Shown piece by piece: positions 3,266 through 8,405 of a stretch of 64,000 bases of DNA (position 1 is its first letter; each line of letters starts with the position of its first letter). This DNA comes from Bacteroidota bacterium. Lineage in GTDB: Bacteria > Bacteroidota > Bacteroidia > Chitinophagales > LD1. The stretch is taken from the NCBI GenBank assembly GCA_947479455.1, contig CANJZE010000021.1, forward strand, positions 1-64,000, read 5' to 3'. Both the position numbers and the translations under genes were made by a program. The notes beneath the pieces were generated by a model. The model was not told where the DNA came from, made no database searches, and saw only the letters and a list, made by a program, of their open reading frames with translations.

Positions 3266-3502
3266 ATGAAAGTTTCAGAAGAGTTAATACAATTAAGTGG
3301 ATTGAATGAAAAACAACTTCGCGAGGAGTTAGCGCTTTGGCTTTATTCAAAAGGTAAACTAAGCATGGGTAGAGCCGCAAAATTCTGCAACACCAACCGA
3401 ATGGAGTTTATGGAGTTAATGAGCAAGCACAACGTTGATGTTAATTATAATGTAGAAGACCTTAAACAGGATATGCTCACCATTGAAAAAATGAGTTTGT
3501 GA
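3266..3502 (+). CDS. UPF0175-family antitoxin
   Basis: A 78-residue protein of the UPF0175 family, a small helical group with an HTH-like core (GRAAKFCNTNRMEFMELM, residues about 37-54) and the typical tail that ends in ED-L-QDM. Family members are commonly encoded just before a DUF3368 PIN-domain toxin, as here, where the downstream gene starts with a GTG overlapping this TGA (GTGA, 3499-3502). That overlap implies translational coupling. A second, diverged copy of the same pair lies at 59.6-60.4 kb. Binding of the toxin and autoregulation of the operon are inferred from the general behaviour of such pairs. Confidence 0.82.
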   Translation: MKVSEELIQLSGLNEKQLREELALWLYSKGKLSMGRAAKFCNTNRMEFMELMSKHNVDVNYNVEDLKQDMLTIEKMSL

Positions 3503-3986
3503 TTATTGTCAGCGACACTACCGCTATTTCTTCTCTACACAAAATTCAACAACTGCATCTTCTTCAATCCATTTTTGGAGTTGTAATTATTCCACAACAG
3601 GTTTTTGATGAACTCAAATTTTTTGAACTGAAAGATTTGTCTTTCAACTGGAGTGAAAAATATCCCTGGATAAAAACAGAAACAGTTACTGACAATACGC
3701 TTCTTGATTCGCTTTCAGAAAATTTAGATGAAGGGGAAGCTGCGGCTATCGCGTTAACAATTGAACTTCATGCCGATTTACTTTTGATAGATGAACGACA
3801 AGGAAGGAAAATTGCGCTAGAAAGAAAGTTGAATATTATCGGGGTAGTAGGAGTAATTGAAATAGCAAAACGGAAAAATTTATTACTGCTGTAAAACCAT
3901 TGTTAGACGACTTAATATCAAAAGCAAATTTCAGAATAAGTAAACATTTGTATGAATACACACTAGAAATTGCTGGAGAAGAATAA
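3499..3986 (+). CDS. DUF3368 PIN-domain toxin, split by a -1 frameshift
   Basis: A PIN-like nuclease of the VapC-related DUF3368 family, expected to cleave RNA using Mg2+ held by acidic residues: D6 in VSDTTAIS, E38, the DEGEA cluster (78-80) and D98/E99 in LLIDER. It starts with GTG overlapping the antitoxin stop. The zero frame ends at 3894 after 131 residues. The -1 frame continues without a gap from 3882 to a TAA at 3984-3986 and encodes ITAVKPLLDDLIS, then a tail ending LEIAGEE. That is the usual DUF3368 C terminus, and it aligns with the in-window paralogue (IQAIKPFLL, ending RDAGEI). The joined product is 162 residues, close to the 157 of the paralogue. The junction is A AAT TTA at 3876-3882. 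Either programmed frameshifting, a recent single-base deletion, or a sequencing error explains it. Confidence 0.78.
3876..3882 (+). other. Slippery heptamer A AAT TTA at the toxin frameshift
   Basis: In the toxin reading frame the codons are AAA AAT TTA, so bases 3876-3882 form X XXY YYZ, the canonical tandem -1 slip site. Slippage here gives exactly the length expected by alignment. No strong downstream hairpin and no SD-like stimulator 10-14 bases upstream was seen. The site lies in an A5T3 tract, where indels and read errors are also common. Confidence 0.5.
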
Positions 3987-6325: not shown

Positions 6326-6419
6326 TATAATGGCAGATTAAGAGGTGAGAATGAAAAAGGAAAGAAAGAAACTGACAATCGCTTTCGCGTGAAGATTTCA
6401 TAGATTGATTAACGAGGCA

Positions 6420-6427
6420 CAAATGTA
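6420..6427 (-). promoter_or_regulatory. Candidate -7 box (TACATTTG) for kup
   Basis: Read leftward, TACATTTG matches TAnnTTTG exactly, about 95 bases before the kup ATG. No clear TTTG is seen at -33, so confidence is limited. Confidence 0.35.
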
Positions 6428-6545
6428 AAAAAGTTTAGAGTTCCCCGTTCAGAGTTTCAACTGATAAGCGCCAGCGAGCCAGCAATACGCAGGTTGCGTT
6501 TTTCGGCAAGACAAATTAATACACCCTTTTAAAAAAAGGCCGTTC

Positions 6546-6577
6546 AATTATTTATCGTATATTTGCGATAATAAATT
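6546..6577 (+). promoter_or_regulatory. ArsR operator overlapping the -7 box
   Basis: Two 12-base arms, AATTATTTATCG (6546-6557) and CGATAATAAATT (6566-6577), form an inverted repeat with two mismatched positions. The eight bases in the centre are TATATTTG, a perfect TAnnTTTG -7 box. A repressor dimer bound here would cover the polymerase contact directly. The arsR ATG follows at 6582. Autorepression relieved by arsenite is the known mode of ArsR; the site itself is predicted. Confidence 0.65.
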
Positions 6578-6581
6578 AACT

Positions 6582-6911
6582 ATGGTAGACAAAAGAGAGT
6601 TATTTAAGAAAGAAGAAGCTGAGTTGGCAGAATTTGCCTGGGCTTTATCACATCCGGCACGCATTGCTATTTTAAAAATGTTGGCTGTAAAAAACGAATG
6701 CGTTTGTGGCGAAATTGTAGAAGTGTTGCCTTTGGCACAAGCAACTGTATCGCAGCATTTAAAAGAGCTTAAAAAAGCCGGATTGATATGCGGCACTGTG
6801 GACGGGGCCAAATCCTGCTATTGTATTAATTGGAAAAAACTGAACACCTGTATAAAAGATATCAATAAACTTTTCGGCAACATGGAAAAAGCGAAAGCCA
6901 GATGCTGCTGA
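6582..6911 (+). CDS. arsR: ArsR-family arsenite-responsive repressor
   Basis: A 109-residue winged-helix repressor. The metalloid site ECVCGE (C40 and C42, at the start of the helix before the recognition helix) matches the Cys-Val-Cys motif of classical ArsR. The recognition helix is [15 protein letters not shown] (54-68). Extra cysteines occur in SCYC (78-81) and at the very end (ARCC). It should bind the dyad at 6546-6577 and release it when As(III) or Sb(III) binds. It is the first gene of an arsenic block: cysteine-rich peptide, aquaglyceroporin, arsenate reductase. The cysteine pattern and the neighbours favour arsenic over zinc or cadmium. Confidence 0.9.
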
Positions 6912-6937
6912 TTATTTCTTAACCAAAATCAAGTATT

Positions 6938-7030
6938 ATGAAAACTGAAAACGAGGAGACTGCAACATGCTGCCGCTGCAAATGCGAAACTTGCAATTGC
7001 GAAAACTGCACATGCTGTAACTGCTGTTAA
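6938..7030 (+). CDS. 30-residue cysteine-rich peptide, metallothionein-like
   Basis: A short open frame, ATG at 6938 and TAA at 7028-7030, encodes a 30-residue peptide. Its first ten residues are acidic and polar (MKTENEETAT). The remaining twenty residues hold 11 cysteines arranged CCxCxCxxCxCxxCxCCxCC, with no hydrophobic residue. A 15-base unit encoding CETCN/CENCT is tandemly duplicated. It lies 26 bases after arsR and is followed directly by an intrinsic terminator, so it is the second gene of the arsR transcript. The composition indicates a thiolate metal or metalloid chelator. It resembles no metallothionein I can name in length or spacing. Binding and sequestering of As(III) is an inference from context. 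Confidence 0.72.
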   Translation: MKTENEETATCCRCKCETCNCENCTCCNCC

Positions 7031-7037
7031 GCAAACG

Positions 7038-7067
7038 CCCCGATGAAATTCATCGGGGTTTTTATTT
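7038..7067 (+). terminator. Intrinsic terminator after the cysteine-rich peptide gene
   Basis: CCCCGATG (7038-7045) pairs with CATCGGGG (7051-7058) around a five-base loop, followed by TTTTTATTT. It begins eight bases after the peptide stop, so it should end the arsR-peptide transcript; partial read-through to the aquaporin is possible. Confidence 0.85.
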
Positions 7068-7100
7068 AGAAGTTCTACTTCTTCAAGAAGTGGAACTTCT
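7068..7100. repeat. 14-bp hairpin before the aquaporin gene
   Basis: AGAAGTTCTACTTC (7068-7081) pairs with GAAGTGGAACTTCT (7087-7100), one G-U pair, five-base loop. It abuts the T-tract of the preceding terminator. It could be a second terminator-like stem or an RNA control element for the aquaporin; no function is shown. Confidence 0.6.
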
Positions 7101-7153
7101 GCTTTCTCAATTCATGATTTCCGTTACATTTATTTCAACAAAAAATAAACCCC

Positions 7154-7804
7154 ATGAAAAAATACACAGCAGAATTCATTGGCACTTTCATTTTAATTTT
7201 TGCAGGCACAGGATGTGTGGTCGTAAACGAACAACTAGGCGGACATTTAGGTTTAACGGGTATTGCCATGGTTTGGGGCTTTGCCATCATAGCACTCATT
7301 TATGCCTTTGGCGATATTTCGGGAACGCATTTAAACCCCGCAGTTACCGTTTCGTTTGCCGTTGACAAACGATTTGAATGGAAAGAAGTTCCCGCTTATT
7401 TAATGGCGCAATTCGCGGGGGCGTTAGGCGCGAGTTTACTTTTACATTTTCTGTTTCCCGAAAACAAAACGCTCGGCATTACGCAGCCATCAGGCACCGA
7501 AACGCAGGCGTTTATTATGGAAACCGTAATGACGTTTATTTTAATGCTCGTGATTTTGCGCGTGAGTGTTGGCGCTAAAGAAAAAGGAATTACCGCAGGT
7601 ATTGCCATTGGCGGCACAGTTTGGTTTCTCGTTCTTTTCGGTGGTCCTGTTTGCGGCACAGGTTTAAATCCTACGCGCTCTATTGCTCCCGCTATTGTTA
7701 CCGGAAATTTTCAATCACTATGGTTGTATATTGTTGCTCCGTTTGCAGGTGCGCTTACTGCCGTTTTCGTTCATAAATTTTTGCACACGCCTGAGAACAA
7801 TTAA
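7154..7804 (+). CDS. aqpS: MIP-family channel, AqpS-like aquaglyceroporin
   Basis: A 216-residue aquaporin-family channel with six membrane segments and two half-helices. The first pore motif is NPA (61-63, GTHLNPAVT); the second is NPT (172-174, GTGLNPTRS), so the second alanine is replaced, while the selectivity-filter Arg (175) remains. It lies between arsR plus the cysteine-rich peptide and a thioredoxin-type arsenate reductase. In the ars operon of Sinorhizobium meliloti, AqpS replaces ArsB/Acr3 and lets arsenite leave the cell down its gradient. The same role is inferred here, because no ArsB or Acr3 pump gene is present in the block. A general glycerol or water channel is the alternative. 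Confidence 0.85.
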   Translation: MKKYTAEFIGTFILIFAGTGCVVVNEQLGGHLGLTGIAMVWGFAIIALIYAFGDISGTHLNPAVTVSFAVDKRFEWKEVPAYLMAQFAGALGASLLLHFLFPENKTLGITQPSGTETQAFIMETVMTFILMLVILRVSVGAKEKGITAGIAIGGTVWFLVLFGGPVCGTGLNPTRSIAPAIVTGNFQSLWLYIVAPFAGALTAVFVHKFLHTPENN

Positions 7805-7814
7805 AAAAACATCC

Positions 7815-7883
7815 TTACACCAAGACGCGAAAACACAAAGGTTTAGCTAATGAAATTCTTTGCGCCTTCGCGCCTTTGTGTAA
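7815..7883. repeat. Imperfect palindrome between aqpS and arsC
   Basis: Arms at 7815-7840 and 7858-7883 pair over 26 bases with about five mismatches (TTACACnAAGnCGCGAA core). It fills almost the whole gap and ends 10 bases before the arsC ATG. It could act as a terminator-like stem or as a dispersed palindromic repeat. Confidence 0.55.
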
Positions 7884-7893
7884 ACTTTATTTT

Positions 7894-8310
7894 ATGAAAA
7901 ACATTCTCGTTCTCTGCACAGGCAACTCCTGCAGAAGTCAAATAGCACAAGCTTATTTGCAAAAACTTTGTGGCGATAAAGCAAAGGTGTACAGCGCAGG
8001 AATTGAAACGCATGGTGTAAACCCGCGCGCTATTGAAACCATGCGCGAAGACGGTATTGATATTTCGCACCACACCAGCAATCATATTGACGAATACACC
8101 CACCTTAGTTTCAATTTCATTATTACCGTTTGCGATAACGCTAAAGAAAACTGTCCATACTTTCCCGGCAATGCTAAACGCTTTCAACATAATTTCACCG
8201 ACCCTGCCAAAGCAAAAGGAACCGAAGAAGAAATTAGAGAAGCATTCAGGAAAGTGAGAGAGCAAATAAAAGTGTACTGCGAAGACTGGGCGAGCAAAGA
8301 ACTGTTGTAA
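7894..8310 (+). CDS. arsC: Arsenate reductase, thioredoxin-coupled ArsC (low-molecular-weight phosphatase fold)
   Basis: A 138-residue protein with the phosphatase P-loop CTGNSCRS (8-15). C8 is the nucleophile, and C80 and C87 in TVCDNAKENCPYFPG correspond to C10, C82 and C89 of the staphylococcal pI258 enzyme. That triple-cysteine relay identifies an arsenate reductase and not a plain tyrosine phosphatase. It reduces As(V) to As(III) using thioredoxin; the arsenite can leave through the AqpS channel encoded just upstream. An in-frame TTG at 7876 lies inside the palindromic repeat, so the ATG at 7894, directly before KNILVLCTG, was chosen. Confidence 0.92.
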   Translation: MKNILVLCTGNSCRSQIAQAYLQKLCGDKAKVYSAGIETHGVNPRAIETMREDGIDISHHTSNHIDEYTHLSFNFIITVCDNAKENCPYFPGNAKRFQHNFTDPAKAKGTEEEIREAFRKVREQIKVYCEDWASKELL

Positions 8311-8358
8311 TTCAACGAAACTTGAAACCATTCTTCTTTCAACTCCCACTCACTTAAT

Positions 8359-8366
8359 TATCTTCG
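8359..8366 (+). promoter_or_regulatory. Candidate -7 box (TATCTTCG) for the PorP/SprF gene
   Basis: TATCTTCG differs from TAnnTTTG at one base and stands 39 bases before the GTG start. The TTCG variant also occurs upstream of cysC and the ABC ATPase gene. No clear -33 element. Confidence 0.3.
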
Positions 8367-8405
8367 CCCGCGCAATATTTTAAATCAATAGCTGTTTACT
8401 TAACT

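Follow-up and report, generated by a model that had tools for sequence, protein, structure and literature searches.

A cysteine-dense 30-residue peptide encoded behind arsR in a Bacteroidota genome, a candidate As(III) scavenger

The window, that is, the whole 64,000-nt stretch of Bacteroidota DNA that was analysed, carries a very short ORF between arsR, encoding an ArsR/SmtB-type repressor, and aqp, encoding a MIP channel, with the arsenate reductase gene arsC behind the channel gene (Table 1). Translation of this ORF, from an ATG start to a TAA stop, gave 30 residues, and together with the profile matches of the neighbours it confirmed the 30-residue, 11-cysteine peptide that an initial annotation had placed between arsR and the channel gene. 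The arsR product scored 65 bits against the NCBIfam model HTH_metalloreg (cut-off 55). The scanned neighbours were a K+ transporter, the MIP channel, ArsC, a PorP/SprF protein, an FGE-sulfatase domain protein, a TylF-like methyltransferase, a PIN-like protein and one unknown.

Table 1. Features at and around the arsR-peptide-aqp-arsC locus of the window.
Feature	Position	Strand	Remarks
PIN-like protein	3499-3894		upstream of K+ transporter gene; Pfam match below cut-off
Palindrome TTATCGTATATTTGCGATAA, near-perfect, candidate ArsR operator	6552-6571	+	overlaps -7-like element
Promoter-like -7 element TATATTTG before arsR	6558-6565	+	inside palindrome 6552-6571
arsR, ArsR/SmtB-type repressor	6582-6911	+	109 aa, 8 Cys, C-terminal CC
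Cys-rich peptide gene	6938-7030	+	30 aa, 11 Cys, product MKTENEETATCCRCKCETCNCENCTCCNCC
Intrinsic terminator, 10-pair stem	7037-7059	+	z -4.9; most likely closes the arsR-peptide transcript
33-nt palindrome, near-perfect	7068-7100	.	dispersed genomic repeat, not specific to ars
Promoter-like -7 element TACATTTA of aqp	7125-7132	+	7 of 8 match; putative role; stretch common to relative G004
aqp, MIP channel	7154-7804	+	Pfam MIP 176 bits
arsC, thioredoxin-type arsenate reductase	7894-8310	+	pI258 family 154.5 bits, below curated 174.3

Every cysteine of the peptide (11/30 residues) falls within its final 20 residues, in three CC, five CxC and six CxxC spacings, overlaps included, and the chain holds neither histidine nor aromatic residues. 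It thereby has the composition of a metallothionein in the broad sense (short, about one-third cysteine, with CC, CxC and CxxC spacings and no aromatics). Among the 931 ORFs of at least 20 aa in the window, it alone reaches at least 25% Cys; in 30 copies of the window simulated with a first-order Markov model, which held 38,338 ORFs of at least 20 aa, two ORFs reached 25% Cys and none 30%, and the 14,010 distinct ORFs over all retrieved loci included four at 25%, among them the peptide and its homologue. An 18-aa ORF with 6 Cys was seen at another locus (L033), shorter than the 20-aa length limit of this count. Scans of Pfam, NCBIfam, PHROGs and PDB sequences, which are limited by the shortness of the query, returned no family match, in agreement with the earlier view that the peptide stands outside known families. 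Within the ORF, two 15-base units (6977-6991 and 6992-7006) are 80% identical and are followed by a weaker third, each unit comprising five codons of the form C-x-C-x-x.

A homologous gene occupies the equivalent position in a congener, G015, where the product, MKTENEETKTCC-CKCETCTCENCTCCNCC, retains the frame and all 11 cysteines. A further record with the peptide, L001, from a Lac Pavin metagenome bin, is by its coordinates the same contig (113079 + 5000 = 118079), so that the two amount to one independent witness rather than two. Between the window and this congener the peptide gene has undergone 6 synonymous changes over 13.3 sites and 3 non-synonymous changes over 73.7 sites (p = 0.0002, Fisher, on rounded sites), and the sole indel is a 3-nt deletion that leaves the frame intact. 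The resulting dN/dS of 0.061 compares with 0.035 for arsR, 0.041 for aqp and 0.065 for arsC in the same pair. This pattern, drawn from one pair of sequences, looks like that of a protein under purifying selection; equal rates and frame breaks, which the initial annotation had named as evidence to the contrary, were not found. The 15-base repeat it had described is present, yet it is not recent: the G015 gene has the same repeat units, placing the duplication before the split of both species.

Conservation extends beyond the ORF. The spacer between the peptide gene and aqp (7031-7153) is unusually conserved, with 4 substitutions over 123 positions and a 3-nt indel relative to G015, as against 49/330 in arsR and 67/651 in aqp. 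A chance ORF, or a conserved RNA from which no peptide is made, might be read from the fact that these 123 nt have changed even less than the ORF, but the changes inside the ORF are biased to third positions, its one deletion is in frame, all cysteines are retained and its composition lies beyond chance; moreover, an Rfam scan gave four matches, all far below the gathering score, and hence no known RNA family. We regard such a reading as highly improbable. The selection pattern in the congener and the composition support the earlier claim of a genuine small gene, which the ORF very likely is. The spacer also holds a near-perfect 33-nt palindrome, which recurs at seven further genomic sites (E at most 3.2e-5, with matches on both strands of a site counted once) and is missing from the aqp upstream region of the relative G004; since it is dispersed over the genome, we rejected it as an ars regulator.

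The peptide is most likely the second and last gene on the arsR transcript, as had been proposed: 26 nt separate the arsR stop from the peptide start, the terminator scan found none in this gap (a weak 5-pair match lies within arsR), and a promoter-like element and a palindrome precede arsR. The -7 elements before arsR and aqp were named by what we take to be the Bacteroidota promoter consensus, and the one before arsR is the sole exact TAnnTTTG within 6400-8400. The palindrome around it, unique in the window even when 3 mismatches are allowed, is probably the operator of ArsR. A strong terminator begins 6 nt after the peptide stop, and the extension of this transcript through the channel gene and arsC, also put forward earlier, is unsupported, since the terminator intervenes and aqp is preceded by a promoter-like upstream stretch of its own, common with a relative that has no arsR there.

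The history of the locus points in the same direction. The aqp gene occurs in 15/18 genomes of the genus, and comparison of about 1.5 kb on each side (one locus being shorter) revealed that 13 of these 15 loci lack arsR and arsC alongside; both are present in the window and G015. The K+ transporter gene of G004 and G017 has its start directly next to the aqp upstream region, an empty site indicating that the arsR-peptide unit was inserted between these two genes. The stretch immediately before aqp, with TACATTTA, is common to the window and to G004, which suggests that aqp probably retains its own promoter and that the peptide gene ends a separate, short transcript.

A short ORF with 11 cysteine codons, a terminator 6 nt after its stop and aqp downstream could also encode a leader peptide, with ribosomes pausing at the cysteine codons to set readthrough of the terminator into aqp-arsC; control of a copper operon by a small uORF is a precedent, as outlined in the available part of PMC9426467. 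This would require the terminator to be opened, but the best pairing of either arm with the ORF is weaker than that with most shuffles (296 and 294 of 300 equal or better), the RNA of the ORF is not unusually structured (z -0.82), and the aqp upstream stretch predates the insertion of arsR. In addition, the next ORF is convergent at 5/11 comparison loci bearing other Cys peptides (described below), leaving nothing there to attenuate. The absence of an antiterminator pairing, the older sequence before aqp and the peptides without a downstream target together weaken this explanation, which we consider very unlikely; as a transcription attenuator, the element was rejected, as no alternative pairing that breaks the terminator was seen.

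The closest relatives of the channel among PDB sequences are plant NIP2-1 proteins (chains 7cjs and 7nl4). Rice NIP2-1 passes arsenite. On a manual reading of the NIP2-1 alignment, the selectivity-filter positions of the channel, as we assign them, are occupied by W, V, T and R, and its second box reads NPT, not NPA. As at an AqpS-type locus, ArsR, the MIP channel and an ArsC below the curated cut-off adjoin; in the same genome (95.9% complete) there is no ArsB, and the ACR3-like match reached 52.9 bits only, against a cut-off of 282.8, so that no pump above cut-off accompanies the channel. Behind arsC, the G015 locus (L001, 6740-8500) has an extra opposite-strand gene for 586 aa with 22 Cys, where the window has the PorP/SprF gene directly.

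The interpretation that we favour, at somewhat better than even chances, is that the peptide is a metallothionein-like scavenger of As(III) under ArsR control. As(III) reaching ArsR would lift repression at the palindrome, so that the sensor and the peptide would be produced together on arsenite exposure. The translated product would be a short, flexible thiol chain whose CC, CxC and CxxC motifs wrap As(III), and perhaps Sb(III) or Cu(I) as well; at about three thiolates per As(III), one chain might hold about three As(III). It would thereby lower free cytosolic As(III) while ArsC generates more and the passive channel, with arsenite as its presumed substrate, leaks both ways, and could so raise resistance. 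A scavenger suits a genome without ArsB and without ACR3 above cut-off, since a channel merely equilibrates As(III). The arrangement with arsR, the selection pattern in the congener and the recurrence of other Cys peptides at ars genes (described below) also speak for this reading. The accessible part of a review (PMC6205960) describes AqpS of Sinorhizobium meliloti as giving resistance to internally made As(III) and sensitivity to external As(III), and this weakness toward external As(III) is a gap that a scavenger would fill.

Transcription together with arsR would also suit an arsenic chaperone, which stores nothing and instead delivers As(III) to one of three partners (ArsR, ArsC or the channel) or serves them as a thiol reductant. 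ArsR, ArsM and DUF6428 proteins of the order likewise end in cysteine pairs, making an exchange between Cys tails conceivable, but the peptide bears no likeness to a known chaperone sequence (Pfam, NCBIfam) and 11 cysteines exceed the need of a single-ion carrier; we hold this role to be unlikely. It is rather unlikely, too, that the target of the peptide, whether as a metallothionein or as a thiol buffer, is a different soft metal (Cu(I), Zn(II), Hg(II)) or an oxidant, with arsenic a mere inducer or irrelevant. Cys-dense chains do bind numerous soft metals, and known bacterial metallothioneins act on zinc and copper, according to the accessible part of PMC7387436; against this, the peptide gene is surrounded by arsR, the MIP channel gene and arsC, and no copper or zinc gene is found among the scanned neighbours. 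The polar head and Cys-rich core resemble the leader and core of the precursors from which modified peptide natural products are made, but no maturation enzyme occurs among the scanned neighbours, and we find such a role scarcely credible.

Significant matches to the peptide were obtained in 2/30 genomes of the family, 2/396 of the order and, in a phylum sample at E 0.05, 1/395, namely its own genome. From 285 confirmed relatives 80 arsR loci were retained, of which L001 alone carried the peptide. Judged by these searches, the exact peptide is a rare gene confined to its lineage, and its absence from 28/30 family genomes implies that it is not generally needed for arsenic resistance there. Weaker matches in family genomes (E 0.25, 1.72 and 8) and four in order genomes (E 0.018-0.075) were dismissed as noise, since the larger ORFs around them included no ars gene and nothing like the peptide was seen there. 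Plasmid records gave no match to the peptide (P0001) or to the G073 peptide described below, in BLAST searches whose low-complexity filter may mask such queries, and one irrelevant DNA match (75.8%). Close behind 8 of 113 distinct arsR genes lay an ORF with at least 4 Cys; the window, G015 and G073 were accepted from these, and L046, L054, L055, L056 and L110 were left out. The expectation that the peptide would be conserved at arsR of relatives was thus borne out in one congener only; other Cys peptides hold that place elsewhere.

One of these is encoded in G073, 30 nt after an arsR 65% identical to that of the window; it has 29 residues, and behind its gene come a terminator, a short ORF that by eye resembles an acetyltransferase gene, aqp and arsC. 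A search with this peptide and a five-sequence profile (A4), neither of which used position, over draws with overlapping genomes, gathered a set from 11 genomes of one order-mate family (G073, G788, G866, G873, G200, G318, G248, G336, G236, G208 and G175). The peptide search matched 50/195 genomes at E 1 but just 5 at E 0.001 or better, all 5 in ars surroundings; at 15 loci examined among the weaker matches (L158-L172), none lay beside arsR, aqp or arsC, and G171, the second genome of the G073 genus, had no match. With the profile, 9/348 order genomes matched at E 0.01, 8 of them in ars surroundings and one (G025) not, and 4/296 genomes of the phylum: G073, G589, where the profile picked up the Cys tail of a longer protein whose gene sits between arsR and arsC, and G517 and G439, with no ars genes nearby. 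As the searches were blind to position, the clustering of these peptides at ars genes was not built in.

The peptides of this set have 16-31 residues with 4-6 Cys, typically arranged as PGCC-x5-CC-x5-8-CC. Ten of the 11 contain three CC pairs, with spacers of x5 and x5-8, and the eleventh contains two; the overall spacing is 3-8 residues, and the first pair reads DPGCC in 9/11. The nearest upstream gene is arsM in 9/11 cases (one tested, NCBIfam NF008823, 360 bits, cut-off 263; the rest labelled by similarity to that one) and arsR in 2/11, and arsR lies within the sequence stretch examined at 7/11 loci. A terminator follows the peptide in 10/11 cases by script and in the remaining one (L154) by eye, as compared with 83/400 sampled long-ORF ends. 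Two close pairs within the set gave too few changes to bear on selection (synonymous/non-synonymous 2/3 and 4/2).

The window peptide has the same place, with arsR or arsM in front and a terminator immediately behind, but not the PGCC-x5-CC-x5-8-CC sequence. Aligned with the profile of the set by hhalign, it matched over one column (E 0.13), and its own genome had no match to that profile; the start regions of both sets are weakly alike, with 3-4% of 758 other gene starts scoring equally. Homology is demonstrated by neither comparison, and in the absence of a profile link we limit the claim to a common place and kind rather than one family: both sets share place, size and Cys richness.

Cys tails are common to unrelated proteins of one operon, as ArsR proteins commonly end in CC and C-terminal tails of the CCxPGxGCC type were seen in ArsM (L004, L009, L045, L154-L157 and others) and in DUF6428-like proteins (L109, L110 and L183; DUF6428 confirmed by Pfam in L109 only). 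The short CC-pair peptides look like freed Cys tails of ArsM or DUF6428 proteins, which we offer as a suggestion only. More broadly, and with slightly less than even confidence, we propose that ars operons of the order may repeatedly have gained micro-metallothioneins of 16-31 residues before the terminator, as arsenic sinks; the window peptide would be the densest in Cys, independent or diverged beyond recognition, and the CCxPGxGCC tails a fused version.

Cys peptides look like an overlooked and recurring part of arsenic resistance, which escape annotation because of their length of just 16-31 residues. The ars operons are known for arsenic sensing, reduction, methylation and export. A 2025 paper (PMC12093948) states, in its accessible part, that no gene for intracellular arsenic sequestration has been found within an ars operon; if the proposal is true, operon-encoded Cys micro-peptides would be the part there declared missing, and would explain how a locus with a passive channel only could cope with arsenite. 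The titles and abstract beginnings of open papers in PubMed Central included none that we recognised as describing such a peptide.

Among known systems, the arsenic chaperone ArsD is likewise a small ars-operon protein with Cys pairs, but it is folded and far longer, and the peptide matched no Pfam family at E 0.1. The short copper metallothioneins of fungi, of about 25 residues, are alike in length and Cys density; they are eukaryotic and copper-linked. SmtA is longer than the window peptide, which has no histidine, no aromatics and no match to an SmtA-type family in Pfam, NCBIfam or PDB sequences, scans in which short queries are at a disadvantage. The smtA/smtB pair of Synechococcus nevertheless offers a likeness, in that a small Cys-rich chain is paired with an ArsR/SmtB-type repressor; zinc is the metal handled by SmtA, and smtA and smtB are divergently oriented, as given in the accessible part of PMC7387436, whereas the window peptide is encoded codirectionally after arsR. 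The CC-pair set resembles the window peptide in place after arsR or arsM, size, Cys pairs and the terminator behind, and differs in having two or three spaced pairs where the window peptide has one dense Cys block. As to the whole locus, the likeness is to the ars operon of Sinorhizobium meliloti, in which, in the portions available of PMC4435449 and PMC6205960, a sensor and an arsenate reductase are joined by AqpS, a MIP channel replacing the pump. In the window, in contrast, arsR and the peptide gene were added beside an older aqp with arsC behind it, and an extra Cys peptide and a terminator stand ahead of the channel.
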